64,000 nt of DNA, from the NCBI RefSeq assembly GCF_019219095.1, contig NZ_JAHUWH010000016.1, positions 1 through 64,000 of the forward strand, in the 5' to 3' direction. A program made the position numbers and the translations under genes. The stretch comes from Acidovorax sp. sic0104. GTDB lineage: Bacteria; Pseudomonadota; Gammaproteobacteria; Burkholderiales; Burkholderiaceae_C. The notes under the pieces are model-generated. The model was not told the origin of the DNA. It did not search any database and saw only the letters and a list, made by a program, of their open reading frames with translations. Shown one piece after another: positions 6,074 through 50,250 of this stretch (its first letter is position 1; the number at the start of each line of letters is the position of its first letter).

Positions 6074-6315
6074 TCGAAGACCAGGCGCGAGCCGTCATTG
6101 CGCAGCAGTTTGGGAAACAGCATCAGCTTCTGGCATTCGCGGGTGGCGACGCCATAGGCCGGGGCGGTGTCCGCACCATACACAGGCACGCTGAACGTGC
6201 GGTCGCGCCCCGAGGCCATCGCGGCGGACGGGGGCATGGTGGCGGTATTGCACCCCGCCAGCAGGCCGGCCAGCGCGCCGGCCAGCGCCCCGACAGAAAC
6301 AGTCGACAGCTTCAT
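6040..6315 (-). CDS. Small lipoprotein of unknown function
   Basis: This 91-residue protein starts at MKLSTVS, with a clear GGAG ribosome binding site 8 bases upstream. It has a short hydrophobic signal and a lipobox (AGLLAGC), followed by a small domain with two further Cys (RECQKL and FECVSE) that may form a disulfide. No family was recognised. It overlaps the start of the SUMF1-fold lipoprotein gene, so the two are probably translated together and may act together in the envelope. Confidence 0.75.
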   Translation of the reverse strand: MKLSTVSVGALAGALAGLLAGCNTATMPPSAAMASGRDRTFSVPVYGADTAPAYGVATRECQKLMLFPKLLRNDGSRLVFECVSEAPDRQP

Positions 6316-34467: not shown

Positions 34468-35814
34468 ATGAATAAATTGCGATCCGGGGGCTTGAAAACA
34501 GGCGCCAAGGCACTACGTCCTACGGTTTTTGCGGCGCTTCTCGGCATGGCGGGTGCCTTGTTTTCAATGGCACCAGCGGCTGCGCAAAGTGCGAATCCTG
34601 CAGCAGCCAGCGCGCCGGCCAAGCCGGTCAAGGTGGCCCTCATCGAAAGCCTCTCGGGCGCGTTTGCCAACACCGGCGAGGCCGTCTACCGCAACGTGTA
34701 CTGGGCCATGGAGCGCGTGAATGCGCGCGGCGGCGTGCAGCTGCCCGCCAGCAGCGGCGGCCCCCGTCCGCTGGCGCTGGAGCGCTACGACAGCAAGGGC
34801 CAGAACGAAGAGGCGCTCTCTGCGCTGCGCGCCGCCATCGACGACGGCGCGCAGGTCATCCTGCAGGGCAACTCGTCGGCCACCGCAGCGGTGCTGATCG
34901 AGGCCATCAACAAGCACAACGAGCGCGAGCCGAACAAGCGCGTGATCTTCCTGAACTACTCGGCGGTGGACCCCATCCTCACCAACGAGAAATGCAGCTT
35001 CTGGCACTTCCGCTTCGATGCCCATGCCGACATGCGCATGGCCGCGCTCATGGAGGTCATGCGCGAGGACAAGGCTCTTAAGAGCGTCTACCTCATCGGC
35101 CAGGACTACAGCTTCGGCCAGGCCGTGCTTCGCGAGGCGAAAAAGCAGCTGGCCGCCCAGCGCCCCGATGTGGCCGTGGTGGGCGACGAGCTGCACCCCA
35201 TCGGCCGCGTGAAGGACTTCGCGCCCTATGCGGTCAAGATCAAGACCAGCGGCGCGCAGGCCGTGGTCACCGGCAACTGGGGCAACGACCTCACGCTGCT
35301 GGTGAAGGCTGCGCGCGAGGTGGGCTACGAAGGCAGCTTCTACACCTTCTACGGCAACGCACTGGGTGCGCCCGCCGCCATCGGCGATGCAGGCATCGGC
35401 AAGGTGGTCGCGGTGGCCGACTGGCTGCCCAACGTGCCGGGCGCGCAGAGCGAGGCGTTCTACCAGTCGTTCCGCACGCGTTTCCCGAAACCGCAGGACG
35501 ACTATGTGCACATGCGCATGCAGCTCATGGTCGAGGCGCTGGCCCAGTCGATCGAGCGCGCGGGCAGCACCGATGTCGTGGCCATCGCACGCCAGATGGA
35601 GGGCGCCAACGTGCAGCTCTCCGGCCAGGGCGGCAGCATGCGCGCGGCGGACCACCAGTTCCAGCAGGCGCTGGTGGTGGGCGTGATGGACAGGAAGGGC
35701 GCACCGGGCGTGAAGTTCGACGTCGAAGGCTCGGGCTACGGCTTTCGCGTAGTGAGGCAGATTGCCGCCGCCAAGGCCCAGCAGCCTCACAGCTGTGCAA
35801 TGCAGCGTCCCTGA
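34468..35814 (+). CDS. LivK-type ABC transporter substrate-binding protein (orphan)
   Basis: This 448-residue periplasmic binding protein has a Sec signal (TVFAALLGMAGALFSMAPAAAQ) and a periplasmic type I binding fold (VALIESLSGAFANTGEAVYRNV ... ). No permease or ATPase genes are adjacent, so it either feeds a transporter encoded elsewhere or serves as a sensor. It is transcribed divergently from hsp20 and ends 130 bases before the flavin monooxygenase cluster. Membership in that cluster is not supported by its type, since that cluster has its own polar-amino-acid binding proteins. Confidence 0.88.
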   Translation: MNKLRSGGLKTGAKALRPTVFAALLGMAGALFSMAPAAAQSANPAAASAPAKPVKVALIESLSGAFANTGEAVYRNVYWAMERVNARGGVQLPASSGGPRPLALERYDSKGQNEEALSALRAAIDDGAQVILQGNSSATAAVLIEAINKHNEREPNKRVIFLNYSAVDPILTNEKCSFWHFRFDAHADMRMAALMEVMREDKALKSVYLIGQDYSFGQAVLREAKKQLAAQRPDVAVVGDELHPIGRVKDFAPYAVKIKTSGAQAVVTGNWGNDLTLLVKAAREVGYEGSFYTFYGNALGAPAAIGDAGIGKVVAVADWLPNVPGAQSEAFYQSFRTRFPKPQDDYVHMRMQLMVEALAQSIERAGSTDVVAIARQMEGANVQLSGQGGSMRAADHQFQQALVVGVMDRKGAPGVKFDVEGSGYGFRVVRQIAAAKAQQPHSCAMQRP

Positions 35815-35944
35815 CGCGCGACTTGGGGATGTGCGGCCCAGCGCGCGCCGCATATCGATATGAAAAGTTAGCGCAACCGGTGGAGGCCCCCGGGCCACAG
35901 AATTTGCCGCATCGATCACTCATGCGCGATTCGCTGCCTCCACC

Positions 35945-36946
35945 GTGTCCTACGCCCTTTCCCTGCTCGACAAAAGTCCCATCCCCGACGGGGCCACGGC
36001 GGCCGAGGCGCTGCAGCGCACCGTAGCGCTGGCCCAGCGCGCCGAGCAACTGGGCTACCGACGCTTCTGGGTGGCGGAGCACCATGGCAACCCGGGCCTG
36101 GCCGGCTCGGCGCCCGAGGTGCTGGTGGCGCATCTGCTGGCGCGCACCTCGCGCATCCGCATCGGCTCGGGCGGCGTGATGCTGCAGCACTACAGCCCTT
36201 TCAAGGTGGCCGAGGCTTTCAAGGTGCTCGCCTCGCTGGCGCCCGGCCGCGTGGACCTGGGCGTGGGCAAGGCGCCCGGCGGCCTGCCGCTGTCCACGCG
36301 GGCGCTGCAGGCGCTGCACGACAAATCCAGGCCGTCCGATTTCAGCGCGCGCTTTGCGGAGCTGGACGCCTTCCTGCACGGCACGCTGGACCCGGACCAC
36401 GCGCTGGCGGGCGCCGTGGCCTACCCCGCACCGCCCAGCCTGCCCGAGCGCCATCTGCTCGGCGGCAGCCCCGACAGCGCTGTGCTGGCGGCGCGCCACG
36501 GCTGGCATTTCACGTACGCGGGCCATTTCAACGGCGACCCCGTCAACATCGAGCGCACGGTGCGCGTGTACCGCGAAGCCGCTGGCCGGGCCCCGTCGCT
36601 GGCGCTCTATGCGCTGGTGGCCCCCACGCAGGCCGAGGCCGAAAGCCTGGTGGGTGCCTTGCGCGTCTTCAAGCTGCATTTGTCCACCGGACAGAGCGTG
36701 AACCTGCCCAGCGCGCAGGCGGCCGCGGAGTTCGCGCGCCAGGCCGGCGTGGCGGATTACCGGCTCGAAGAAACCCGGCCCCACGTGATCGCCGGCTCGC
36801 CCGAGCATGTGCGCGAGCAGCTCGATGTGCTCAGCGAGCGCTACGGCATCGAGGAGTTCGTGGTCGACACGCCCGTCACGGGCTTTGCCGAGCGGCTGGC
36901 GTCGGTCGAACTGCTGGCCGGTGCCTACGCCACCGCCGAGGTCTGA
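35945..36946 (+). CDS. Luciferase-like flavin-dependent oxidoreductase (MsnO8/YtmO group)
   Basis: This 333-residue protein is of the bacterial luciferase fold, which uses reduced FMN and oxygen. The start of the family domain, [21 protein letters not shown], and [20 protein letters not shown] place it in the group called luciferase family oxidoreductase group 1, which includes B. subtilis YtmO/CmoO. The start codon is probably GTG. It is the first gene of a same-strand block with a second monooxygenase, a deacylase, an acetyltransferase and an amino acid transporter. The inferred job is in oxidative cleavage of a modified cysteine or related sulfur compound. Confidence 0.88.
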
Positions 36947-36986
36947 GCTGCCGGGCGCGGCCATTACTTTCCCTGGAAAAGACACC

Positions 36987-38345
36987 ATGAGCTACACCCC
37001 ATCCCCCATCCGTTTCGGCGTCATGCTGCATGGCGCAGGCGGCCACATGAATTCGTGGAAGCACCCCGCAGGCCCTGCGGACGCGAGCGTCAACCTCGAC
37101 TTTTACATCGAGACCACGAAGAAGGCCGAGGCCCATGGCATTGCCTTCGCCTTCGTCGCCGACGGGCTGTTCATCAACGAGAAGTCCATCCCGCACTTCC
37201 TGAACCGCTTCGAGCCCATCTCCATCCTGTCGGCGCTCGCCGTGGCGACGTCGAAGATCGGGCTGGCGGGCACCATCTCCACCTCGTACAGCGAGCCTTT
37301 CACGGTGGCGCGGCAGTTCGCTTCGCTGGACCTCATCAGCAAGGGGCGCGCAGGCTGGAACGTGGTGACCACGCCGCTGGAGGGCACGGCCAGCAACTAC
37401 AGCCGCAACCACCCCGAGCATGCGCTGCGCTACGAGATCGCCGACGAGTACCTGCAGGTGACGCAGGGCCTGTGGGACAGCTGGGACGAAGACGCCGTGG
37501 TGCGCAACCGCGCCACTGGCCAGTTCTTCGACCCGGCGAAGCTGCACACGCTGAACCACAAGGGCCGCTTCTTCCAGGTGGCGGGGCCGCTCAACATCGG
37601 CCGGTCGCCGCAGGGGCAGCCGGTGATCTTCCAGGCCGGGTCATCCGACGCAGGCATCGGACTGGCAGGCAAGTACGCCGATGCGGTGTTCACCCACTCG
37701 CCCTCGGTCGATGAGACGCGCAGCTTTCTGCGCAAGGTCAAGGCCAGCGCCGTGGTGCACGGCCGGCAGGCCGACGATGTGAAGATATTCCCCGGCATCG
37801 GCCCCGTGGTGGGCGCCACGCAGGAAGAGGCGGAGGCCAAGTACCAGGCCATCCGCGAGCTGCTCACGGTCGATGAAGCGCTGGCCTACCTGGGCCGCTA
37901 CTTCGACCACCACGACTTCAGCCAGTACCCGCTCGACGAACCCTTCCCGGAGCTGGGCGAGATCGGCCGCAACAGCTTTCGCTCCACCACCGACCGCATC
38001 AAGGCCGACGCCAAGGCGCGCGGCCTGACCCTGCGCGAAGTGGCGCTGGAGGCCGCCACGCCGCGCTCGCAGTTCGTGGGCACCGGCGAGCGCGTGGCCG
38101 ACGAGATCATCCGCTGGGTGGACGCAGGCGCGGCCGATGGCTTCATCCTGGGCTTCCCCGTGCTGTCGCAGGGGCTGGATGATTTCATCACCCACGTGAT
38201 CCCGGTGCTGGAGGCGCGGGGCCGCTACCAGCGCACGCTGCCGGGCCACACCCTGCGCGACCACCTGGGACTGCCGCGCAAGGCCAGCCGGTACGCGCAG
38301 GTCGCGGCTGACGCAGGCAAGACGCCTGAGAAGAAGGTCGCGTGA
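36987..38345 (+). CDS. NtaA/SnaA/DszA-family flavin monooxygenase
   Basis: This 452-residue protein is a two-component FMN-dependent monooxygenase of the NtaA/SnaA/SoxA/DszA family. Family marks are [19 protein letters not shown] at the start, FAFVADGLF, and [20 protein letters not shown]. The ribosome binding site is GGAAAAG. The family cleaves C-N or C-S bonds; B. subtilis YxeK and YtnJ/CmoJ of this family act on N-acetylated S-substituted cysteines. The next gene (M20 deacylase) overlaps its stop (TGATG), and the previous monooxygenase ends 40 bases upstream. A flavin reductase partner is not encoded nearby. Confidence 0.92.
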
Positions 38346-39550
38346 TGGGAGCGGCATTGCCGACAGCGGCTCCAGAGCAGGACGTGCAGCGCGTGAAATG
38401 TGTGGAAGAGGGCATTGCGGCCTTCATCGGCGAGTTCCAGGCATTGCGCCGGGACCTGCACCAGCACCCCGAGCTGTCGTTCCAGGAGCACCGCACCTCG
38501 GCCATTGTGGCCGAGCGCCTGGGGTCCTGGGGCTACGCGGTGACCACCGGCATCGCGGGCACGGGGGTGGTGGGCACGCTGCGCAAAGGGCAGGGTACCA
38601 AGGCCCTGGGCATCCGTGCCGACATGGACGCACTGCCCATCACCGAGGCCACGGGCCTGCCCTATGCCAGCCGGAACGCCGGGGTGATGCACGCCTGCGG
38701 GCACGACGGGCACACCACAGTGCTGCTGGCCGCCGCGCGTTTCCTGGCCGAGTCGGGCCGTTTTGATGGCACGCTGAACCTGATCTTCCAGCCCGCCGAG
38801 GAGAACGGCGGCGGTGCACAGCACATGATCGGCGAGGGCCTGTTCGAGCGCTTTCCGTGCGACGCGGTGTTCGGCCTTCACAACTGGCCCTGCGTGGGCG
38901 CGGGGCACTTCGGCTGCGTGACGGGGCCTGCCATGGCCTCGGTCGACCAGATCACCATCACCGTGCGCGGCAAGGGCGGCCACGGCGCGGCGCCGCACGA
39001 AACGGTGGACCCGGTGGTCGCCAGCGCGCACATCATCACCGCGCTGCAGACGGTGGTCTCGCGCAATGTCGATCCGCTCGACATGGGCGTGGTCACGGTG
39101 GGCTCCATCCACGGCGGCAACGCGCCCAACGTGGTGCCCGAGAGCGTGGAGCTCAAGCTCACGGCCCGCGCCTTCAAGCCCGAGGTGCGCGAGGTGCTCA
39201 AGGAGCGCATTCCGGCCATCGCCCGCGCGCAGGCCGAGAGCTTCGGCGCCACGGCCGATGTGTTGTACCGGCCCGGCTATCCGGCGGTGCTCAACCACGA
39301 TGCCGAGACGCAGCTGGCGCGCAGTGTGGCCATCGACACCTTCGGCGCCGCGCGCGTGGACGCCGGGTTTCGCCCGCGCACGGCCAGCGAGGACTTCGCG
39401 TTCATGCTGCTCAAGCGCCCCGGCAGCTACGTGTTCGTGGGCAATGGCGATGGCGCATCGCTGCACAGCCCGTACTACGACTTCAACGACGCCATCCTGG
39501 CGCCATCGGCCACGTACTGGGTGCGGCTGGCCGAGCGGTTTCTCGCTTGA
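38345..39550 (+). CDS. M20-family amidohydrolase / N-acyl amino acid deacylase
   Basis: This 401-residue metal-dependent amidohydrolase is of the hippuricase/IAA-amino-acid hydrolase type. Metal-ligand motifs are HACGHDGHT and PAEENGGGAQHM; RADMDALPI and the dimerisation-domain GKGGHGAAPHETVDPV are also typical. The start ATG overlaps the stop of the monooxygenase gene. B. subtilis relatives YxeP and YtnL (SndA/SndB) deacetylate N-acetyl-S-substituted cysteines or N-acetylcysteine. With the linked acetyltransferase and monooxygenases this gives the final deacetylation step, an inference from context. Confidence 0.92.
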   Translation: MGAALPTAAPEQDVQRVKCVEEGIAAFIGEFQALRRDLHQHPELSFQEHRTSAIVAERLGSWGYAVTTGIAGTGVVGTLRKGQGTKALGIRADMDALPITEATGLPYASRNAGVMHACGHDGHTTVLLAAARFLAESGRFDGTLNLIFQPAEENGGGAQHMIGEGLFERFPCDAVFGLHNWPCVGAGHFGCVTGPAMASVDQITITVRGKGGHGAAPHETVDPVVASAHIITALQTVVSRNVDPLDMGVVTVGSIHGGNAPNVVPESVELKLTARAFKPEVREVLKERIPAIARAQAESFGATADVLYRPGYPAVLNHDAETQLARSVAIDTFGAARVDAGFRPRTASEDFAFMLLKRPGSYVFVGNGDGASLHSPYYDFNDAILAPSATYWVRLAERFLA

Positions 39551-39563
39551 CCCGGAGCCCACC

Positions 39564-40076
39564 ATGAGCGACAGATTCATCTACACCACGCCGCAGGACC
39601 CGCTGGCTCGGCCCTTGATCGACGAGCTGACTCAAGAGTACGAGAGCCGTTATGGCGATTTCTACCAGCAGGAAGGCGGCCTGCGCGAAATGGACAAATA
39701 CGCGCCCGGGTTGTTCTCGCCTGCCCAAGGCGGCAATTTCTTGCTCCTGCTGCGCGATGGGCGGGCCATCGGCGGCGGCGCCTTCAAGCGCCATGACGAC
39801 CCCGACACGGCCGAACTCAAACGCGTGTGGACCCACTCGGCCCATCGCCGCCAGGGCCTGGCGGGCCGCGTGCTGCAGGAACTGGAGGCGCAGGCGCTGC
39901 GCCAAGGCTACGCGCGGCTGTACCTCACCACGGGCTTTCGCCAGCCCGAGGCCGTGGGGCTGTACCTGAGCCATGGCTACGCCGCCTTGTTCGATACATC
40001 GTTGCCGCACGAGACCTACCGGCACCTGCCGTTCGAGAAGTGGCTGCGGGCGCAGGAACTGGCCCGCGCAGCCTGA
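39564..40076 (+). CDS. GNAT-family N-acetyltransferase
   Basis: This 170-residue acetyltransferase has the acetyl-CoA-binding segment HRRQGLAGRVLQELE and the C-terminal LYLTTGFRQPEAVGLYLSHGYAALFD. The ribosome binding site is GGAG. It sits between the M20 deacylase and the amino acid transporter. The presence of an acetylase and a deacetylase in one cluster is what makes an acetylate-cleave-deacetylate route likely, with this enzyme in the role of SnaA/YxeL. Confidence 0.9.
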   Translation: MSDRFIYTTPQDPLARPLIDELTQEYESRYGDFYQQEGGLREMDKYAPGLFSPAQGGNFLLLLRDGRAIGGGAFKRHDDPDTAELKRVWTHSAHRRQGLAGRVLQELEAQALRQGYARLYLTTGFRQPEAVGLYLSHGYAALFDTSLPHETYRHLPFEKWLRAQELARAA

Positions 40077-40118
40077 TTTCACCCTGTCCGACGCATTGTT
40101 TCGGGAGTTCTTGCCACC

Positions 40119-41990
40119 ATGTCCACAACCACCATCCTGGATGCCGCTGGAGGTCTGCCACGAGGCCCAGTGCATCCCGCTGCAGCCGTTGGCAGCCATG
40201 CATCCAGTGCGTCCCCTGCCACGCCATCGTCCGCGCCCGCCAAGGGCGACTTCTCGCACTACCGGGTCGTGCCTGCGCGACACCGGGCGCGGGCCGTGGG
40301 CACCGTGTTTGCAGCTGTTGTCATTGCGCTGGTGCTGTACTCGGTGCTTGCCAACCCGCGCTGGGGCTGGAGCATCTTCGGCGAGTATTTCTTCTCGGAA
40401 CCCGTGCTGGTGGGCCTGGGCCGCACGCTCCTGCTGACGGCGCTCGGGGCGCTGTTCGGCTTCACGCTGGGCACGGCGCTGGCGCTGGCCCGCGTGTCGC
40501 GCTCGCCGCTGCTGGCGGGGCTGTCGTGGGCCTTCATCTGGATATTCCGGTCCATCCCGGTCATCGTGCTGCTGCTCATCATCAACAACCTGGGCTACCT
40601 GTACGAAACCGTGAGCCTGGGCGTGCCTTTCACCGGCTGGACGTTCTTCTCGTACCCCACCACGCAGCTCATCAGTCCCTTCGTGGCGGCGCTGATCGGC
40701 CTCACGCTGAACCAGGCGGCCTTTGCGTCGGAGATCGTGCGCGGCGGCATCCTATCGGTGGATCAGGGGCAGCTGGAAGCGGCGGCCGCCCTGGGCCTGC
40801 CGCGCCGCCGCCAGGCGTTTCGCATCGTGCTGCCGCAGGCCATGCGGTCCATATTGCCGGCGGGCTTCAATGACATCATCGGGCTGGCCAAGGGCACGTC
40901 GAACGTGTACATCCTGGCCTTGCCCGAGCTGTTCTACACCATTCAGATCATCTACCGCCGCAACCTGGAGGTGATTCCGCTGCTGATGGTGGCGACCGTG
41001 TGGTACCTGGTGATCCTCACGGTGCTGTCGCTGCTGCAGTACTACATCGAGCGCCACTTTTCCAAGGGCGCGCTGCGCAGCCTGCCGCCGTCGATCTTCA
41101 GCGGCATGGCGCAGCGCCTGTGGCCTGCGCGGCGCGTGGCCGTCCAGGGAGATGCAGTAGCTGAACGCACCGTGGCGGCGCCCGCGCCCGCCGTCGCCAC
41201 CGTGCCGCGCTGGACGGGCGAGCGCAACCGCGGTGGTGAAGTCACCATCCACGGCGTGTCCAAGAGCTACGGCGCCTTGCGCGTACTGAAGGACGTGACG
41301 TTGACGGTTCCCCCCGGCAGCGTCACGGTGATCCTGGGGCAGTCCGGCTCGGGCAAGTCGACCTTGTTGCGCACCATCAACCACCTCGAACGCGTGGACG
41401 ACGGCTTCATCGCCATCGATGGCGAGCTGATCGGCTACCGCCAGGACGCGGACACCCTGTACGAGCTGGGCGAGAAGGACATCCTCAAGCGCCGGGTGGA
41501 CGTGGGCATGGTGTTCCAGAACTTCAACCTGTTCCCGCACCTCACGGTGCTGGAGAACATCGTCGAGGCACCGGTGAACGTGCGCAAGGTCGCGCGTGCG
41601 GAGGCCGAGGCCCTGGGGCTGGAGCTGCTGGCCCGCGTGGGCCTGTCCGACAAGGCGCACAGCTACCCCCGGCAGCTCTCCGGCGGGCAGCAGCAGCGGG
41701 TGGCGATTGCCAGGGCACTGGCGCTCAAGCCCAAGGTGCTGCTGTTCGACGAGCCCACCTCGGCGCTCGACCCCGAACTGGTGGGCGAGGTGCTGGATGT
41801 CATCAAGGAACTGGCGCGCACCGGCACCACGCTGATCATCGTGACGCACGAGATCGGCTTCGCCCGCGAGGTGGCTGACACGGTCGTGTTCATGGAGCAG
41901 GGTCGGATCATCGAAACGGGCGCGCCCGCCAAGGTGTTCAGCCGGCCGGACCACCCGCGCACGGCCGAGTTTCTGGCCAAGGTGCTCTAG
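40119..41990 (+). CDS. Fused polar amino acid ABC permease/ATPase
   Basis: This 623-residue single-chain transporter component has a variable N-terminal cytoplasmic region (1-50). A HisM-type permease domain follows (about 55-310; the EAA loop is near QLEAAAALGLPRRRQAF), then a linker rich in Ala/Val (about 335-365). An ATPase domain (about 370-623) shows Walker A GQSGSGKST, signature LSGGQQQR, Walker B VLLFDEPTSALDPE and IVTHE. Usually these are two proteins of about 230 and 250 residues. Two tandem binding protein genes follow, so the substrate is likely a small amino acid derivative such as a modified cysteine or cystine. Confidence 0.94.
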   Translation: MSTTTILDAAGGLPRGPVHPAAAVGSHASSASPATPSSAPAKGDFSHYRVVPARHRARAVGTVFAAVVIALVLYSVLANPRWGWSIFGEYFFSEPVLVGLGRTLLLTALGALFGFTLGTALALARVSRSPLLAGLSWAFIWIFRSIPVIVLLLIINNLGYLYETVSLGVPFTGWTFFSYPTTQLISPFVAALIGLTLNQAAFASEIVRGGILSVDQGQLEAAAALGLPRRRQAFRIVLPQAMRSILPAGFNDIIGLAKGTSNVYILALPELFYTIQIIYRRNLEVIPLLMVATVWYLVILTVLSLLQYYIERHFSKGALRSLPPSIFSGMAQRLWPARRVAVQGDAVAERTVAAPAPAVATVPRWTGERNRGGEVTIHGVSKSYGALRVLKDVTLTVPPGSVTVILGQSGSGKSTLLRTINHLERVDDGFIAIDGELIGYRQDADTLYELGEKDILKRRVDVGMVFQNFNLFPHLTVLENIVEAPVNVRKVARAEAEALGLELLARVGLSDKAHSYPRQLSGGQQQRVAIARALALKPKVLLFDEPTSALDPELVGEVLDVIKELARTGTTLIIVTHEIGFAREVADTVVFMEQGRIIETGAPAKVFSRPDHPRTAEFLAKVL

Positions 41991-42016
41991 AAAACCTCTT
42001 TCCCTGCCCGCTGCCG

Positions 42017-42036
42017 CCGGCCTGCACCCAGGCCGG
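42017..42036 (+). other. Intercistronic hairpin before the binding protein genes
   Basis: CCGGCCTG pairs perfectly with CAGGCCGG around CACC, with no T-run. It may protect or separate the downstream mRNA so that binding proteins are made in excess, as is common for ABC systems. This role is inferred. Confidence 0.4.
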
Positions 42037-42112
42037 GCGTCAGCGTGGACGCAGCACTCATTTTTCTTTCACACCCACCCACGCAACCTGCTTGTTATTC
42101 CGGAGCCCCTTC

Positions 42113-43048
42113 ATGACCCTTGTGAACAAGACCCTGGCCGCGCTCGCGCTGGCCGCCGCCTCCGTCGCCGCGCTGGCGCCCCTCCATGCGTCGGCGCAGG
42201 CCATCGACCTGAGCCCCGAGCAGCCGGGCAGGCCGCGCTCGCAGAAGGTGGACGATGCCTTGAAGCTCGTCGGCAAGGACTTCAAGTTCGCCAAGGACGG
42301 CGTGCTCACCGTGGGCACCACCACGGGCCGGCTGCCGTTTGGCGCCTATGCCACCGACAACAAGACGCCCGTGGGCAATGCTCCCGACATCGCACAGCTG
42401 GTGGCCGACAGCCTCGGGCGCAAGCTGGAGCTGGTGTCCGTGGCCTGGGCCGACTGGCCGCTGGGCCTGCAGTCGGGCAAGTTCGATGTGGTGATCTCCA
42501 ACGTCACCGTGACCGAGGAGCGCAAGGAAAAGTTCGACTTCTCGACCTACCGCAACGACCAACTGGGCGTGTACGTCAAGGCCGACAGCAAGATCACCTC
42601 CGTCAAGGAGCCGAAGGATGTGGCGGGCCTCAAGGTGGTGGTGGGCGCGAGCACCAACCAGGAGCAGATCCTGTTGCGCTGGAACCAGCAGAACATCGCC
42701 GCAGGCCTCAAGCCCGTGGAGATCCAGTACTACGACGACGATGTGGTGCTGTATCTGGCGCTGGCCTCGGGCCGTGCGGACGCGTACCTGGCCCCCAACG
42801 GCATCGCCGCGCACAACGCGCGCGACGGCAAGACGAAACTGGTAGGCACCTTTTCAGGCGGCTGGCCGCAGGCGGCCGAGATCGCCGTGACTTCGCGCAA
42901 GGGCTCGGGCATTGCCGACGCGATCACCACGGCACTGAATGCGCAGATCAAGAACGGCAACTACGCCAAGGCGCTGGAGCGCTGGAACCTGCAGTCCGAG
43001 GCCATCCAGGTCTCGCGCACCAACCCTCCCGGCCTGCCCAAGAAATAA
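42113..43048 (+). CDS. Polar amino acid ABC transporter substrate-binding protein (1)
   Basis: This 311-residue periplasmic binding protein of the SBP_bac_3 family has a Sec signal (LAALALAAASVAALAPLHASAQA). The ribosome binding site is CGGAG. The mature part starts with an unusual segment, IDLSPEQPGRPRSQK, before the binding fold. Its neighbour downstream has the same architecture, with conserved VAWADWPLGLQSGKFDVVISNV and TSVKEPKDVAGLKVVVGASTNQE. The pair resembles the tandem binding proteins TcyJ/TcyK of the B. subtilis cystine-type system. Confidence 0.92.
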   Translation: MTLVNKTLAALALAAASVAALAPLHASAQAIDLSPEQPGRPRSQKVDDALKLVGKDFKFAKDGVLTVGTTTGRLPFGAYATDNKTPVGNAPDIAQLVADSLGRKLELVSVAWADWPLGLQSGKFDVVISNVTVTEERKEKFDFSTYRNDQLGVYVKADSKITSVKEPKDVAGLKVVVGASTNQEQILLRWNQQNIAAGLKPVEIQYYDDDVVLYLALASGRADAYLAPNGIAAHNARDGKTKLVGTFSGGWPQAAEIAVTSRKGSGIADAITTALNAQIKNGNYAKALERWNLQSEAIQVSRTNPPGLPKK

Positions 43049-43072
43049 GCCCGCGGCCTTCAAGGACGATCC

Positions 43073-44017
43073 ATGACTCTCCATTCCCTATTGCGCCGCA
43101 GCCTGGTGGCCCTGGCCTCGGCGTGCGCGCTGTCCTGCGCGTGGACCGTGGCCGGTGCTGCCACCGCGTTTGACTTCAGCCCCGAGCAGAAGGGCCGCAT
43201 CCGCACCGAGAAAGACGCAGCGGCCGTCCAGGCCATTCCGAAGACTTTCAAGTTCGTGAAGGAAGGAGTCTTCACCGTGGCGATCGCGCCGTTTGCGCCG
43301 CCCATCGCCACGTATGCCAGCGACGCCAAGACGGTGGTGGGGTTCGACCCGGACTATGCGCAGCTGATTGCCGACGCCCTGGGGCTCAAGCTCGAACTGC
43401 TGCCGATTGCCTGGGCCGACTGGCCGCTCGGGCTCACCTCGGGCAAGTACGACGCGGTGATCTCCAACGTGGGCGTGACCGAGCTGCGCAAGGAGAAGTA
43501 CGACTTCTCCACCTACCGCCTGGGGCTGCACGGCTTTTATGTGCGCGCCGACAGCAAGATCACCTCCATCAAGGAGCCCAAGGACATCGCCGGTCTCAAG
43601 GTCATTACCGGCTCGGGCACCAACCAGGAGCGCATCCTGCTGGAGTGGAACAAGCAGAACGTCGCCGCGGGCCTCAAGCCCGTGGAGCCTGTGTACTTCG
43701 ACGACGACGCCGCGCGGCTGCTGGGCGTGGTGTCGGGCCGGGCCGACGCCAACTTCAACCCCAACGCGCCGCAGGCCTACCACGCGGCCAAGGACGGCAA
43801 GATCAAGCTCGTGGGCACGGTGAACGCGGGCTGGCCGCTCAAGTCCGACGTGGCCATCACCACGCGCAGAGGCTCGGGCCTGGCCGATGCGCTGACGCTG
43901 GCCACCAACGGGCTCATCAAGAACGGCAAGTACACGCAGGCGCTGCAGCGCTGGAGCCTGCTGGAAGAAGCCTTGCCCAAGTCTGAGACCAACCCCCCTG
44001 GGCTCCCGAAGTTCTGA
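43073..44017 (+). CDS. Polar amino acid ABC transporter substrate-binding protein (2)
   Basis: This 314-residue paralogue of the preceding protein has a Sec signal ending near VAGAATA and the same N-terminal DFSPEQKGRIR segment. It keeps WADWPLGLTSGKYDAVISNV and ends NPPGLPKF. The residues lining the pocket differ in several positions (for example FAPPIATYAS against TGRLPFGAYAT), suggesting a related but different ligand. It ends 2 bases before the third monooxygenase gene, so translation is likely coupled. Confidence 0.92.
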   Translation: MTLHSLLRRSLVALASACALSCAWTVAGAATAFDFSPEQKGRIRTEKDAAAVQAIPKTFKFVKEGVFTVAIAPFAPPIATYASDAKTVVGFDPDYAQLIADALGLKLELLPIAWADWPLGLTSGKYDAVISNVGVTELRKEKYDFSTYRLGLHGFYVRADSKITSIKEPKDIAGLKVITGSGTNQERILLEWNKQNVAAGLKPVEPVYFDDDAARLLGVVSGRADANFNPNAPQAYHAAKDGKIKLVGTVNAGWPLKSDVAITTRRGSGLADALTLATNGLIKNGKYTQALQRWSLLEEALPKSETNPPGLPKF

Positions 44018-44019
44018 CC

Positions 44020-45111
44020 ATGGCCATTGCGCACCTTGCATTTCTGACACCCGGCAACTATGCCGAGGACGGTCCCTTCCAGGGCCTGGAAGACACCTTG
44101 CGGCTGTTCGAGCACGGGGAGGCGCTGGGATTCCAGGGTGCCTGGGTGCGGCAGCGGCATCTGGAGAGGGCGGTGTCGTCCGCGGCCACGCTGCTGGCCG
44201 CCGCCACGCAGCGCACGCGGCGCATTGCGCTCGGTGCGGCGGTGATCCAGATGGGGTATGAGAACCCCTTTCGGCTGGCCGAGGATCTGGCGACGGTGGA
44301 CGTGTTGTCGCGCGGGCGCCTGCAGGTGGGGCTGAGTGCAGGGGCGCCGCCGTACGGGCCTCTGCTGGGCGGGCACTTGTTCGACGGCGATGCGCAGGGC
44401 ATCGACTTTTCGCATGCGCGGGTGGAGCGATTGCGCAGCAACTTGCGCGGGGATTTCTTCGGCGACGATGACTTTTTCGTGGAGTCGCCCGCAGGCCGCC
44501 AGCGCCCGCGGGTGCAGCCTCATGCCCAGGGCCTGGTGGAGCGACTGTGGTACGGCGGCGGCTCTTTGCGGTCAGCCCACTGGGCGGGTGCGAGCGGCCA
44601 TCACCTGTTGATCGGCAATCTCAACCGAGGTGAGCAGACTGACGACTTCTTCGAGGCGCAGCGCAGCCAGCTCGACCTGTTCCACGCAAACTGGTCGGCG
44701 CCCTATGCCCCGCGCGTGGCGCTGGGGCGGGTCATCGTGCCGCTGGACGGTGCCGACGCTGCCACGCGTGCCCGCTACCGCGCCTGGGCCGCGCTCAGGC
44801 TGCCGCGCACGCTGGGGCCGCAAGGAGATCGCCGCACGCTGTTCGCGCGCGATCTGGTGGGCACGTCCGACGAAATCCTGGAGAGCCTGCGCAAGGACCC
44901 CATCGTGCCGCGGGTGCAGGAACTGCGTCTGGAGCTGCCGTACGACTTCAGCGTCGACGAATATGCGCAGATCCTGCGCGACACCGCGCGGTATATCGCA
45001 CCGGAACTCGGCTGGTCACCGGCTGCTGCGGAGCCCGGGGCCCCCGGTGCTCACTGCCCGGCGCGCGCGGCGGACACTTCGCGGCCCAGCTCGATCACGG
45101 CCATGGCGTAG
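44020..45111 (+). CDS. Luciferase-like flavin-dependent oxidoreductase (third copy)
   Basis: This 363-residue protein is of the luciferase-like monooxygenase fold (IAHLAFLTPGNY at the start, LGAAVIQMGYENPFRLAEDLATVDVLSRGRLQVGLSAG in the middle). It is clearly different from the other two monooxygenases of the cluster and may handle another substrate or step. The last about 20 residues (Pro/Ala/Ser-rich) run into the convergent transglycosylase gene, giving a 61-base tail-to-tail overlap. The core ends near residue 335. Confidence 0.85.
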   Translation: MAIAHLAFLTPGNYAEDGPFQGLEDTLRLFEHGEALGFQGAWVRQRHLERAVSSAATLLAAATQRTRRIALGAAVIQMGYENPFRLAEDLATVDVLSRGRLQVGLSAGAPPYGPLLGGHLFDGDAQGIDFSHARVERLRSNLRGDFFGDDDFFVESPAGRQRPRVQPHAQGLVERLWYGGGSLRSAHWAGASGHHLLIGNLNRGEQTDDFFEAQRSQLDLFHANWSAPYAPRVALGRVIVPLDGADAATRARYRAWAALRLPRTLGPQGDRRTLFARDLVGTSDEILESLRKDPIVPRVQELRLELPYDFSVDEYAQILRDTARYIAPELGWSPAAAEPGAPGAHCPARAADTSRPSSITAMA

Positions 45112-46172
45112 TAGCTCGACCAGTTGTAGCGCGTGATGGCGTAGAAGTTCTCTGTGCCCGCCACGTAGCTGGCGGCATCACCGCCGTTTTGCAGTTCGAT
45201 CAAGGCCAGTGGGCCTGTGTGCTGAACGCCTGCGGCGTCCAGCACCGCGCCCTTGGCCTGCATGCTGGCCACGCTGAAGGTGGGCAGGATGTCGGGGGCC
45301 ATCAGGTCATCGAGCTGCAGGCGTGCGGTGTCGAACTGCACGCCGAAGTGTGTGGGCATGCCGGGCGTCCACCCGTGGCCGCGAAAGTAATTGGCCACCG
45401 AGCCGATGGCGTCGGCCGGGCTGTTGAACAGGTCCACACGGCCGTCGCCATCGAAGTCGATGGCATAGCGCACCCAGCTCGAGGGCATGAACTGGCCCAG
45501 GCCCATCGCGCCGGCGTAGCTGCCGCGGGCCTCGAACGGGTCGGTGTTGCTGCGGTTGGTGAAGCTCAGGAACTGCTCGAGCTCACGTCGGAAGAACTCG
45601 GTGCGCTCCTTGGCGCGTGGGTGGGCCGAGGGGAAGTCGAAGGCCAGCGTGGCCAGCGCGTCCATCACGCGGAAGTTGCCCATCTGCTGGCCGTAGATGG
45701 TCTCGACGCCGATGATGCCCACGATGATCTCGGCAGGCACGCCGTACTCGCGCTCGGCCCGCTCCAGCGCCGCCTGGTTCTGCTGCCAGAAGCGCACGCC
45801 CGCACGGATGCGGATGGGCTCGACGAAGCGACTGCGGTACACGCGCCAGTTCTTGGCCGTGCCTTTGGCCGGTGGCAGCATGAGGCGCGGCACCTGCGTG
45901 AGGAACTGCGCCTGGCCGATGGCCTGGCGCACCCATTCGCGGTCCAGGTCGCGGCGCGCGGCCAGGTCGTCGGCGAACTGCAGGGCCTCGGGCCGGGTGG
46001 CGTACAGGATGGCGGGCTGCCTGGCGGGCGCAGCGCTGCCTTTGGCTGCGGATTTTGGGGATTTTTGGGGGGTTGCGCTGACAGGGCTTGTGCTGATTGC
46101 TATTAAAGTGATAGCTATTGCAATGGCGGTCCGGCTCAAGTTCTTCTGCATGTCCGATATCGGTGTGTTCAA
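45051..46172 (-). CDS. mltB: MltB-type lytic murein transglycosylase
   Basis: This protein of 373 residues cuts peptidoglycan between MurNAc and GlcNAc. The catalytic Glu is in GIIGVETIYGQQ, and SYAGAMGLGQFMPSSWVRYAID is a strong family mark. The N-terminus has a hydrophobic Sec-type signal (TAIAIAITLIAIST), without a lipobox. The start may also be the internal Met at 46151 (MQKNLSRT), which gives a better signal peptide. The signal-coding DNA includes sequence related to an intergenic repeat. The gene starts one base before the stop of the TgpA-like gene. Confidence 0.92.
   Translation of the reverse strand: MNTPISDMQKNLSRTAIAIAITLIAISTSPVSATPQKSPKSAAKGSAAPARQPAILYATRPEALQFADDLAARRDLDREWVRQAIGQAQFLTQVPRLMLPPAKGTAKNWRVYRSRFVEPIRIRAGVRFWQQNQAALERAEREYGVPAEIIVGIIGVETIYGQQMGNFRVMDALATLAFDFPSAHPRAKERTEFFRRELEQFLSFTNRSNTDPFEARGSYAGAMGLGQFMPSSWVRYAIDFDGDGRVDLFNSPADAIGSVANYFRGHGWTPGMPTHFGVQFDTARLQLDDLMAPDILPTFSVASMQAKGAVLDAAGVQHTGPLALIELQNGGDAASYVAGTENFYAITRYNWSSYYAMAVIELGREVSAARAGQ
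46092..46118 (-). repeat. Partial family-1 element inside the mltB signal sequence
   Basis: GCTATCACTTTAATAGC on the - strand has the dyad form of the start of family-1 elements (GCTAT ... ATAGC). Here it encodes part of the signal peptide. Confidence 0.35.
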
Positions 46173-48206
46173 TCAATGTCTGGCGGGCTTGGGCCACGGC
46201 AGGGCGCGGAACTGGCGGCGCAAGGCGCCCAGCTCTGCACCAGGCTCTGGGGCATAGCGCAGGCGCTCCAGGCGCAGCAGCCAGTCAGCCACCCCTGCGG
46301 CCGGAAGTCCAAATTGTGCCTGCACGCGTTCGGCCATGGCGCGGGGCGGCAGGTTGTCCGGCAGCACCAGGCCTGCACGTGCCAGCCGCTGGCGTGTGCG
46401 CGCGAGCAGCCGCAGCCAGGGGTCGTGCTGGCTGCGCTCCCACAGGCTCCAGGCACCGGCACCCAGTGCCGTGGCAATGACCAGGTAGCCCAGGACCGTG
46501 GTCAGGTCCTGCCAGCTGGGGGACTCGAACCCCAGGGCCTTGAGCAGGTCCATCTGGCGGCTCTGGGTGTAGTTGAGCACCCACTGGTTCCAGCTGTTGT
46601 TCACGGCCTCCCAGACGGCGCGCAGGTTCTGGGCCAGGCCGGGGCTGAGCGTTCCGATGGCGGCGCCGAAGACACCTTCGGGTGGCCGCAGGCGCTGGAA
46701 TTGGCCGACGCGCCCGGGAGACACAGCCCCCGTGGGGTCCACGCGCACCCATCCGCGATCCTCCATCCACACCTCTGTCCAGGCATGCGCGTCGGCATTG
46801 CGCACGGTCCAGTAGCCATCCACCGGGTTGCGCTCGCCGCCCTGGTAGCCGGCAACGATGCGCGATGGCACATCCATGGCCCGCATCAGCACGACGAAGG
46901 CGGAAGCGATGTGCTCGCAGAACCCTTGCCTGCGGTCGAACCAGAATTCGTCCGCCGTGTGTTCGCCGTAGAGGCCGGGTGCCAGCGTGTAGGTATAGCC
47001 GCCGGTTCGCAGGCGCTGCAGTGCCGCGTCGACCAGGGCCTGGGTGCCACCTGCCGACAGCTTTGGGTCCGCGCGAATTTGCGCGGCCAGCTCCAGGGTG
47101 CGGGGGTTGAAGCCGGGTGGCAGCTCCGTAAATGCACGCAACTGGCGCACGGATTTCTGCGGCCCGTGGCGAAACTCCGGATAGCTCACGGCCTGGTAGC
47201 GCAGTACCTCGGTGATCGGCCGGTTGGTCATCCACTGCAGGTCCTGGGTCATGTGGGCCTTCATGCTGGACAACTGGGGAGCATCCGGCGTGGCCTCCAG
47301 CACCATCAGCCAGGGCTGCCGCTGGGGCTCGAGCGTGACCTCGTAGCGCAACTCCCTGCCACTGACCTGCAGGTTGGCCGGCAGTGCCGCGCTTGCGGCC
47401 CAGGTGCTGTCCTCGCGGTACGGCTCGGCCTGCCACTGGCGGCCGTCGAAGGCCGTCAGTACGGGGCCTCGGAAGTACAGCATCGACTGGGGCGGCATCT
47501 GATTCGGGTTGCCTTCAAAGCGCAGGCGGATCGCCACCCGATCATCGAGCGCGATCTCGGCCATGTCCCCGATGCGCATGTTGCCCGACAGCCCGCTGCG
47601 CCCGATGGGGTCGTCGCTGGGCAGGCCCCACAGGGGCGCCATGCGGGGGAAAAGCATGAACAACGCCACCATGATCGGTGCGCCCAGTAGCGCCATCGCC
47701 CCTGCGATGCGGAACGTCTGCCACAGCGGCGGCCTTCCCACCGGCATGTGTGCGTTGACCAGCGCCATGAGCAGGCCCATCAGGCCCACCAGCATGGCGG
47801 CAGCAGTCGTCAGCGACTGCGAGAAAAAGAAGTTGCTGAGGATGGTGAAGAAGCCCAGGAAGAACACCACCATGGCATCGCGCCGGGCACGCAACTCCAG
47901 CATCTTGAGGGCGAGCAGCAGGACGATGAGCGTCACACCCGCATCGCGTCCGAGGATCGTGCCGTGCGTGAACACGGTGCCCGCCACTGAGGCCACCAGC
48001 AGCGCGAACACCATCCAGCGGCCCGGCAGCGGCCGGACCTTCAGGGCCATATGGCCCCGCCACAGCAGCAGCGCGCCCGCAAGCACGCTCGTCCACAACG
48101 GAAGGTTGGGCGCCTGCGGCGCGATCACCCAGACGATGACCAGCAGCAGAAAGATCGTGTCGCGGGCGTCGCGGGGCAGGGAGGAGAGGGTCTGGCGCAG
48201 GTTCAT
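46173..48206 (-). CDS. TgpA-like DUF3488/transglutaminase membrane protein
   Basis: This 677-residue membrane protein has about six N-terminal helices (DUF3488 region, residues 15-200) and a periplasmic transglutaminase-like domain. The catalytic triad is visible as Cys in RRQGFCEHIASAF, His in NADAHAWTEVW and Asp in VRVDPTG. A further membrane helix near residue 580 and a C-terminal cytoplasmic DUF4129-like tail follow. The start at MNLRQTLSSLPRD is used. The family (TgpA in Pseudomonas aeruginosa) is linked with cell envelope function and sits in an operon with DUF58 and MoxR genes, as here. Confidence 0.93.
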   Translation of the reverse strand: MNLRQTLSSLPRDARDTIFLLLVIVWVIAPQAPNLPLWTSVLAGALLLWRGHMALKVRPLPGRWMVFALLVASVAGTVFTHGTILGRDAGVTLIVLLLALKMLELRARRDAMVVFFLGFFTILSNFFFSQSLTTAAAMLVGLMGLLMALVNAHMPVGRPPLWQTFRIAGAMALLGAPIMVALFMLFPRMAPLWGLPSDDPIGRSGLSGNMRIGDMAEIALDDRVAIRLRFEGNPNQMPPQSMLYFRGPVLTAFDGRQWQAEPYREDSTWAASAALPANLQVSGRELRYEVTLEPQRQPWLMVLEATPDAPQLSSMKAHMTQDLQWMTNRPITEVLRYQAVSYPEFRHGPQKSVRQLRAFTELPPGFNPRTLELAAQIRADPKLSAGGTQALVDAALQRLRTGGYTYTLAPGLYGEHTADEFWFDRRQGFCEHIASAFVVLMRAMDVPSRIVAGYQGGERNPVDGYWTVRNADAHAWTEVWMEDRGWVRVDPTGAVSPGRVGQFQRLRPPEGVFGAAIGTLSPGLAQNLRAVWEAVNNSWNQWVLNYTQSRQMDLLKALGFESPSWQDLTTVLGYLVIATALGAGAWSLWERSQHDPWLRLLARTRQRLARAGLVLPDNLPPRAMAERVQAQFGLPAAGVADWLLRLERLRYAPEPGAELGALRRQFRALPWPKPARH

Positions 48207-48282
48207 CGCGGGGACGCGGGCCGGTGGGAGTCGGTTGACGGCAGGGGCGGTGCGCAAGGGGGCGCCTGGCGCGGGTGGGGGG

Positions 48283-49326
48283 TCAGCACAGCGCGAGCGC
48301 CTCAAGGCAGTTGCGTTTGTGCACGGGCCCCGAATCCGGGGCCAGTTCCGCGTTGGGCAGGCGCAGGCCATAGTCCAGGCCCAGCTGGTCGGCCTGCAGC
48401 ACCCAGGCTGTCAGGCGCGATACGCGGCCTTCGTGGTCTGCCAGCGTGGCGCGCGCCAGGTCCAGCCACAGCTCCTGCCGCTGGGCCTGCTGCGCATCGC
48501 GGCTGACCAGATCGTCGGTGCCTGTGCCCAGCGTCTTGGCGGCTTTTTTCCAGACCACCAGCTTGAGGGGATCGCCGCGCCGGTAAGCGCGCACACCATC
48601 GAATTCGCCGATGCCCTGAGTCGGCGTGCTGCCAGCTCCGCCAGTGCGCGGCTCGCCAGGCGGCAGCGGCGGGGCAGGTGTCTCTGGTGCGGGGTACACC
48701 ATGACCTGCGATGCGGGGCGCCAGTAGGTCCACACTCGGAAGGTGCCCAGCGGAAAACGCGTCTCCGCTGTCAGCGTCGGCACCCGGTGCAAGCCTCGGC
48801 GCTCGGGCTTGAAGGCCACCATCACGCTGGTCTGGCCCTGTGCGGGCACGTCCGTCCAGGCCCAGTGGTGCGCCTCCTTGCCCGTACCGTGCACCGACAG
48901 CGCGATGCCGTAGCGCGGCGTCTTGCGGGCGCTCGATATCTGGATCTCGAATGCGGTGCTCGTGCCCATGAAGTGCGCATCGGGCGCCTTCAGGTGCAGG
49001 GTCAGGCCGCGCAGGTTGGCGTGGCAGATGTGCATGCCCACCACGGAGCTGCCGGCCAGCAGAAACGTCAGCAGGTAGCCGAGGTTGAGTTCGTAGTTGA
49101 TCGATGCGATGAGCAGCACGATCAGCGTCAGCGCCAGCATCCAGCCCGAGCCAGTAGGCAGGATGTACACATTGCGCTGGGTGAGCGTGAGCGTGTCGTT
49201 GAGGGGCAGCCGGCCTTGCCACCAGCGCTGAAAGCGCCGGCGCAACGGAGCGAGCGGGCTGAACCGCGCCGCCAGGGCGCGCCAGCGCGCCAAGGGTGAC
49301 TGGGGGAGCGATGCAGTGGAGTCCAT
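48283..49326 (-). CDS. DUF58-domain membrane protein
   Basis: This 347-residue protein has two N-terminal membrane helices (about residues 60-100) and a DUF58 region with the hallmark IGEFDGVRAYRRGDPLKLVVWKKAAK. DUF58 proteins have a von Willebrand factor A-like fold and pair with MoxR ATPases. It lies between moxR (3 bases upstream) and the TgpA-like gene. Confidence 0.93.
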   Translation of the reverse strand: MDSTASLPQSPLARWRALAARFSPLAPLRRRFQRWWQGRLPLNDTLTLTQRNVYILPTGSGWMLALTLIVLLIASINYELNLGYLLTFLLAGSSVVGMHICHANLRGLTLHLKAPDAHFMGTSTAFEIQISSARKTPRYGIALSVHGTGKEAHHWAWTDVPAQGQTSVMVAFKPERRGLHRVPTLTAETRFPLGTFRVWTYWRPASQVMVYPAPETPAPPLPPGEPRTGGAGSTPTQGIGEFDGVRAYRRGDPLKLVVWKKAAKTLGTGTDDLVSRDAQQAQRQELWLDLARATLADHEGRVSRLTAWVLQADQLGLDYGLRLPNAELAPDSGPVHKRNCLEALALC

Positions 49327-49329
49327 GGG

Positions 49330-50250
<921 letters not shown>

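Follow-up and report, generated by a model that had tools for sequence, protein, structure and literature searches.

What does a run of eight genes on contig NZ_JAHUWH010000016.1 of Acidovorax sp. sic0104 act on, and by which reactions? We analyzed the first 64,000 nt of this contig (the window), which belongs to a genome of 5.8 Mb in 82 contigs. Orthology to Bacillus enzymes, taken with the pathway described for these, makes it quite probable that the genes form an operon importing S-substituted cysteines, most likely S-alkyl- or S-benzylcysteines, and recovering cysteine from them by a pathway of the CmoO/CmoJ kind. All eight genes lie on the + strand between positions 35945 and 45111. Their coordinates, and their families as assigned with Pfam and NCBIfam, bore out the first-pass annotation of this DNA, which had described eight consecutive same-strand genes in the following order:

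35945..36946, + strand, first luciferase-like monooxygenase (LLM1), MsnO8 family TIGR03558, 346 bits (cut-off 167)
36987..38345, + strand, second luciferase-like monooxygenase (LLM2), NtaA/DmoA family TIGR03860, 517 bits (cut-off 280)
38345..39550, + strand, M20 aminoacylase/amidohydrolase, TIGR01891, 357 bits (cut-off 154)
39564..40076, + strand, GNAT N-acetyltransferase, PF00583, E = 4.7e-16
40119..41990, + strand, amino-acid ATP-binding cassette (ABC) importer, permease-ATPase fusion, BPD_transp_1 and ABC_tran in a single 623-aa frame
42113..43048, + strand, family-3 binding protein a (SBPa), PF00497
43073..44017, + strand, family-3 binding protein b (SBPb), PF00497
44020..45111, + strand, third luciferase-like monooxygenase (LLM3), PF00296, E = 1.2e-23; TIGR04027, 101 bits (cut-off 413)

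The first two monooxygenases were compared with the ytm-ytn region of B. inaquosorum (L041), which was obtained from a scan of a genome collection with YtnJ (23 loci) and encodes a YtnJ 96% identical to the query. LLM2 was 58% identical to YtnJ and 46% identical to YxeK, and in a search of the whole B. inaquosorum genome YtnJ (551 bits) scored above YxeK (440 bits). LLM1 and YtmO shared 42% identity over 332 residues (BLAST). Phylogenetic trees, in which some long branches were flagged, placed both window proteins with their Bacillus counterparts. In the LLM2 tree (50 rows), a clade of 38 rows with support of 100/98 united the window protein, YtnJ and proteins of Paenibacillus and Psychrobacillus, leaving YxeK and two paralogs from the same genome outside. 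The LLM1 tree (44 rows, 42 of them different) contained a 37-row clade (100/99) of the window protein, YtmO and Psychrobacillus proteins; four other Bacillus MsnO8 proteins and a paralog from the own genome fell outside it. Judged by these trees, LLM2 is an ortholog of YtnJ (CmoJ) and LLM1 an ortholog of YtmO (CmoO), so that the likeness to ytm-ytn proposed in the first-pass annotation goes beyond shared family names. LLM1 is accordingly a predicted S-oxygenase of N-acetyl-S-alkylcysteine, and C-S cleavage of the resulting sulfoxide is the predicted role of LLM2. LLM1 was located immediately 5' of LLM2 in all 33 proteobacterial loci of the LLM2 clade, the window included. LLM2 scored far under the cut-offs of the NCBIfam models for SsuD, SfnG and RutA (54 bits against 518 for TIGR03565; 90 against 383 for TIGR04021) and is not an SsuD/SfnG equivalog.

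The M20 protein, which starts at ATG 38345 or GTG 38342, shares 41% identity with YtnL, and the two are reciprocal best hits. Searched in the B. inaquosorum genome, it matched YtnL at 293 bits, followed by a protein at 266 bits and YxeP at 251 bits; YtnL searched in the own genome returned the window M20 on top at 290 bits, with the next match at 264 bits. The motifs HACGHD and PAEE are common to the M20 protein, YtnL and YxeP. On an M20 tree (37 rows, 35 different), the M20 proteins of such clusters formed a separate clade (28 rows, 100/99). Deacetylation of N-acetylcysteine by ScmP, YhaA and YtnL is described in PMC12757645, for YtnL as an in vitro activity. The window enzyme is predicted to be an N-acetylcysteine deacetylase.

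The acetyltransferase gave a different picture. It had been expected to be of the YtmI/YxeL kind, and this expectation failed. BLAST found no match between it and YtmI at E ≤ 10, and a profile of 13 cluster GNATs clearly matched just one B. inaquosorum locus (C2:473393, 38 bits), which is neither YtmI nor YxeL. Profile-profile comparison aligned 93 columns at 27% identity with 88% probability; the small E-values of this comparison stem from a six-sequence database, in which YtmI scored 16 bits. On these three lines a closer relationship to YtmI or YxeL was rejected, and the protein is best placed in the same superfamily as these enzymes, in another subfamily. For this gene, this is the outcome that the first-pass annotation had named as refuting its interpretation. 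The acetylation step therefore rests on family and context: a cluster-borne GNAT-family acetyltransferase is present here and in related clusters, the window protein being 49–65% identical to the cluster GNATs of 12 other loci, and acetylation of S-substituted cysteine is its predicted role.

The importer carries its permease domain (BPD_transp_1, residues 114–315) and ATPase domain (ABC_tran, residues 390–548) in one chain. Its ATPase half is 49% identical to YtmN, and the fusion is 40% identical to YtmL over 169 residues. The best NCBIfam match of SBPa was the cystine-binding model NF008426, at a score under the cut-off; SBPb is 58% identical to SBPa.

From the observed gene content, gene order, LLM1/LLM2 orthology and conservation, we infer the reactions, the substrate and the regulation of the system. 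The two binding proteins and the fused permease-ATPase would import the amino acid, and the GNAT enzyme would N-acetylate the S-substituted cysteine. LLM1 would then convert the thioether to the sulfoxide, and LLM2, using reduced flavin mononucleotide (FMN) and O2, would cleave the C-S bond to give an aldehyde and N-acetylcysteine sulfenic acid. The sulfenic acid might be reduced through general thiol chemistry or by an unlinked reductase, after which the M20 enzyme would deacetylate N-acetylcysteine to cysteine. Reduced FMN could likewise be supplied by an unlinked reductase; an SsuE-type FMN reductase gene is found elsewhere in the genome (224 bits, above the cut-off). The scheme follows the CmoO/CmoJ pathway as outlined in PMC10863075, in which acetylation and stereospecific sulfoxidation are followed by cleavage of the sulfoxide C-S bond, reduction and deacetylation. 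PMC12757645 describes an acetylate-break-deacetylate scheme and implicates the ytn cluster in the breakdown of S-methyl- and S-benzylcysteine, and variants of the pathway for S-(2-succino)cysteine (2SC) are treated in PMC9706529. We found no account of the proteobacterial cluster in the literature searched, which excluded the founding papers of 2014 and 2022. Earlier notice of proteobacterial carriers is nonetheless likely, because the pathway is called widely distributed in soil bacteria in PMC10863075.

The eight genes are under purifying selection: ratios of nonsynonymous to synonymous substitution (dN/dS) were 0.03–0.30 for all genes in every comparison made with ten same-genus loci, one of which is missing LLM3. 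Synonymous divergence of the GNAT gene from four of these loci (L067–L070) was 0.67–0.84, compared with 0.13–0.53 for the other eight genes tested, and this raised divergence suggests that the GNAT segment has been exchanged between lineages. Neighboring genes of the cluster are separated by anything from a 1-base overlap to 42 bases, except for 122 bases 5' of SBPa, and this spacing would be compatible with a single transcript.

Across genera and plasmids, gene order is conserved far above chance. In a search of 60 genomes (relatives and the own genome), a GNAT with at least 72% identity was detected in 11, namely the own genome and 10 of 35 same-genus genomes; the remaining matches were weaker GNATs. 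The cluster was syntenic in all ten same-genus loci, with LLM3 deleted in one. Within the family, LLM3 was found in 11 of 299 genomes at E ≤ 1e-50 (own included). Eight family loci from other genera, selected by LLM3, all contained LLM1, LLM2, the GNAT, the fusion and at least one binding protein, and six of them contained M20. A locus from another family that was chosen by LLM2 (L120) gave no LLM3 match. The class-wide LLM2 search returned 2 of 321 genomes (own included) at E ≤ 1e-120, a limit too strict for this count to serve as a distribution.

Among plasmid records, LLM2 had matches in 298 (E ≤ 1e-100) and LLM3 in 153 (E ≤ 1e-40). The two genes were on the same strand, 6.2–7.0 kb apart, in 15 of 15 records among the matches listed for both (40 LLM3 rows and 80 LLM2 rows, the latter from two listings with partly the same rows). 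The exact eight-gene order was seen on plasmids of Comamonas odontotermitis, Rhizobium sophoriradicis, Mesorhizobium 131-2-5, Ensifer adhaerens, Terrarubrum flagellatum, Haematobacter massiliensis, Agrobacterium vitis, R. phaseoli N161, R. leguminosarum trifolii 9B and R. etli IE4803. Sinorhizobium americanum has the same order, with an LLM3 match that is not in its gene table, as has R. leguminosarum viciae 248, where the GNAT is in two overlapping pieces and some genes are not listed. Other plasmids depart from this layout: LLM3 sits between the binding proteins in Phyllobacterium 628, M20 is missing from the Roseomonas gilardii cluster and LLM3 from that of Methylobacterium NMS14P, and B. 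cenocepacia and Paraburkholderia terrae show a different order without M20 and LLM3. Paracoccus methylovorus possesses only a 51% identical LLM2 relative, without LLM1, GNAT or M20. LLM3 was present in 6 of the 11 plasmid loci chosen by LLM2 (L108, L109, L124–L129, L148–L150). In Erwinia E602 and Burkholderia stagnalis, whose loci were chosen by LLM3, the LLM3 relatives do not belong to such a cluster. The cluster design is a recurrent alpha- and beta-proteobacterial version and is not special to the genus. The fused transporter and third monooxygenase do set it apart from Bacillus, as first supposed; they are not features of this strain, as they recur in many alpha- and beta-proteobacterial loci. 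Most of the monooxygenases in the plasmid records read carry no annotation beyond 'LLM class flavin-dependent oxidoreductase', and the orthology proposed here gives a testable pathway for a gene set recurring on plasmids of alpha- and beta-proteobacteria associated with soil and plants.

LLM3 is frequent yet dispensable. It has been lost from one same-genus locus (L067 3355–5823, G023), where about 0.4 kb separates the SLT gene from SBPb and the rest of the cluster is kept. Its context links it to sulfur: in B. stagnalis the run of genes that holds an LLM3 relative also encodes an SfnB-family sulfur acquisition oxidoreductase and an NtaA/DmoA enzyme, and a relative in Erwinia E602 lies beside an ABC importer, probably of the peptide type, and an M20-family dipeptidase. 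As a tentative guess, LLM3 may be a second S-oxygenase or C-S-cleaving enzyme that broadens the substrate range, and the analysis singles it out as an uncharacterized enzyme of a sulfur-linked family. The end of LLM3 overlaps a convergent SLT_2 gene by 61 bases. The opposite strand adjoining the cluster (45051–50250, - strand) encodes this SLT_2 transglycosylase, a TgpA-type transglutaminase and a MoxR-type AAA ATPase.

In other species, the surroundings of the cluster include genes suited to the missing steps of the pathway. FMN or flavin reductase genes occur there in several species and cysteine synthase genes in some. Genes for DSBA-domain proteins were also found (Pfam checked for two), one of which is labeled 2-hydroxychromene-2-carboxylate isomerase in its record, and elsewhere there are genes for cystathionine beta-lyase or, on the opposite strand, MalY/PatB. 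The five Rhizobium copies (L105, L129, L145–L147) are followed by an FMN reductase gene, a ChaC-type gamma-glutamylcyclotransferase gene and taurine transport genes; the ChaC-type gene lay about 3 kb after the cluster in all five loci read (Pfam for two). Three of the five copies (L105, L129, L146) come directly after repABC in the stretch read. Bean stores gamma-glutamyl-S-methylcysteine (PMC6572574), and the Rhizobium copies would tie a plasmid-borne sulfur-salvage trait to this known storage compound. The ChaC link is treated as a lead and not as a set of independent events, because all five plasmids belong to a single replicon cluster (rep_cluster_841) and two of the strains originate from fava bean and clover rather than Phaseolus. 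A combined, rather speculative reading would see the cluster as a distinct, horizontally spread form of cysteine dealkylation, in which LLM3 would contribute a third flavin-dependent reaction on sulfur that Bacillus is not known to have, such as oxidation giving the opposite sulfoxide stereoisomer or oxidation of S-substituents that CmoO rejects, and in which the nearby gamma-glutamylcyclotransferase and FMN reductase would let rhizobia live on the gamma-glutamyl-S-methylcysteine of bean. We regard this reading as a whole as doubtful.

Several observations weigh against the recovery of cysteine from S-alkylcysteines by CmoO/CmoJ-type enzymes. The raw scores of LLM1 in the B. inaquosorum genome nearly tied (246 bits for YtmO, 243 bits for a Bacillus paralog), and its assignment was decided by the tree. 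The solved structure closest to LLM2 by sequence is 3sdo (643 bits), ahead of YtnJ 1tvl (559 bits), and bears the name 'nitrilotriacetate monooxygenase', which is a depositors' label. The clade of cluster M20 proteins joins YtnL and YxeP with weak support (88/34). M20 is also absent from three of eight LLM2-chosen loci scanned (L108, L109, L128); in one of these, from P. terrae (L128), an AstE/AspA-type deacylase gene (5163–6188) lies 5' of the GNAT gene and is a possible replacement for M20. Neither YtmI nor YxeL is an ortholog of the GNAT. Pfam detected no glutaredoxin, flavin kinase or flavin reductase among the eight genes, and the glutaredoxin that lies between YtmO and YtnJ in Bacillus has no counterpart among them.

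Three other explanations have to be set against these genes. Degradation of 2SC as in the Bacillus scm (yxe) system, by acetylation, one-step monooxygenase cleavage and deacetylation, would use the same parts in outline (a GNAT, an NtaA-type monooxygenase, an M20 enzyme and an importer), and the best solved relative of the window M20 is YxeP (1ysj, 249 bits). LLM2, however, groups with YtnJ and not with YxeK, in identity as well as on the tree, and on that tree 2SC was rejected as first choice for the main substrate. The scm stretch read (L121) gave no match to an MsnO8 gene, whereas LLM1 invariably precedes LLM2 in the proteobacterial loci; the profile search of the Bacillus genome indicated no YxeL-type GNAT; and Pfam assigned a lyase domain to none of the eight genes, outside of which the genome was not searched for 2SL lyase. 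We consider this explanation improbable. Of the modified cysteines named in the first-pass annotation, the S-alkyl type is retained, and 2SC became less likely because LLM2 is not of the YxeK type.

It is slightly less improbable, and still very unlikely, that the cluster scavenges sulfur from a different source (a sulfonate, thioether or secondary metabolite, for instance), with the GNAT and M20 enzymes protecting and deprotecting an amine other than cysteine. The binding proteins may take another substrate, taurine transport genes accompany the Rhizobium copies, and one locus (L130) combines an SfnB-type oxidoreductase with NtaA-type enzymes and an LLM3 relative in a single cluster. The placement of LLM1 and LLM2 in the YtmO and YtnJ clades, the low scores of LLM2 with the SsuD, SfnG and RutA models, and the amino-acid type of the importer and binding proteins argue the other way. 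Detoxification of electrophiles is somewhat easier to envisage, though unlikely as well. The cluster would then be the last leg of a mercapturate-like route for glutathione conjugates, with recovery of cysteine secondary. This would agree with the statement in PMC10863075 that S-alkylcysteine arises primarily from S-alkyl glutathione, and with the ChaC-type gene of the rhizobial loci; a dedicated importer nevertheless suggests an external substrate, and Pfam revealed no glutathione transferase or gamma-glutamyl enzyme among the eight genes. Import of S-alkyl- or S-benzylcysteines followed by CmoO/CmoJ-type recovery of cysteine remains the preferred reading.

Upstream of the eight genes, two further features were recorded:

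34468..35814, + strand, Peripla_BP_6 binding protein gene, upstream neighbor outside the core, PF13458, E = 3e-68
35851..35877, + strand, candidate regulatory element, palindrome CATATCGATATG (35851-35862) followed by AAAAGTTAGCGCAAC

The Peripla_BP_6 gene precedes the cluster in 11 of 11 members of the genus (window included) and is part of the synteny in the ten same-genus loci. It was left out of the core because the stretches read in other genera, some of them short upstream, showed no such gene next to the cluster. The palindrome lies 82 bases from the LLM1 start, in the sequence CATATCGATATGAAAAGTTAGCGCAAC. Its core is kept in all ten same-genus loci, nine times as the exact ATATCGATAT and once as ATATTGATAT with a single change, while the flanks have diverged; the pattern, with up to three mismatches allowed, had one match in the window and none in 100 shuffles. 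We interpret it as a candidate regulatory element. The exact 12-mer occurs at two places in the genome, the second being C22:196049, and with just this one other place a role as a genome-wide sulfur signal was rejected. A position matrix from nine sites was run over ten stretches of the own genome; scores of 9 or more occur 17–26 times in the shuffled window, so that only high scores are meaningful. Besides the two exact copies, the best site (score 15.1) was the following, before the LLM2 paralog on contig C33:

L077 9397..9409, - strand, similar site GCATACCGATATC, about 85 bases before the mechanical start of the C33 LLM2 paralog

This distance is nearly that of the cluster and is no more than suggestive of a shared regulator. 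The exact core was absent from the upstream stretches of other genera, where similar sequences were seen in L112, L113, L117, L118 and L119. An RNA element or riboswitch was rejected, as Rfam had no match at gathering scores in the whole window.

How does the cluster compare with known systems? For LLM3 and its homologs, the closest named model is that of the TIGR04027 (KPN_01858-type) monooxygenases; all seven LLM3-type proteins tested scored 92–114 bits, below the cut-off, so that they are relatives and not members. With the B. subtilis scm (yxe) system, read in B. inaquosorum L121, the cluster shares a GNAT, an NtaA-type monooxygenase, an M20 deacetylase and an amino-acid importer, but LLM2 and the GNAT are not orthologous to YxeK and YxeL, and the cluster has two further luciferase-like enzymes.

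The B. subtilis ytm-ytn (cmo) system shares more. The gene order of its B. inaquosorum counterpart (L041) is GNAT, two binding proteins, two permeases, ATPase, monooxygenase, glutaredoxin (Pfam), monooxygenase, RibR, M20 and permease; the monooxygenase before the glutaredoxin is YtmO, the one after it YtnJ, and the M20 protein YtnL. Common to this system and the cluster studied here, each in one run, are the orthologous pairs LLM1/YtmO and LLM2/YtnJ, the reciprocal best hit to YtnL, a GNAT, two binding proteins and an amino-acid importer. The two differ in the GNAT subfamily and in the importer, which consists of two permeases and a separate ATPase there and of a single fusion here; the YtnI-type glutaredoxin, RibR and YtnM of ytm-ytn are not among the eight genes, to which LLM3 is an addition. 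A plasmid cluster of Pantoea agglomerans (L148) shares with the eight genes LLM1 (49% identity), LLM2 (60%), M20 (39%), a GNAT of the same subfamily (49%) and two binding proteins. It encodes its permease and ATPase separately and gave no LLM3 match, which makes it intermediate between the Bacillus type and the one described here.

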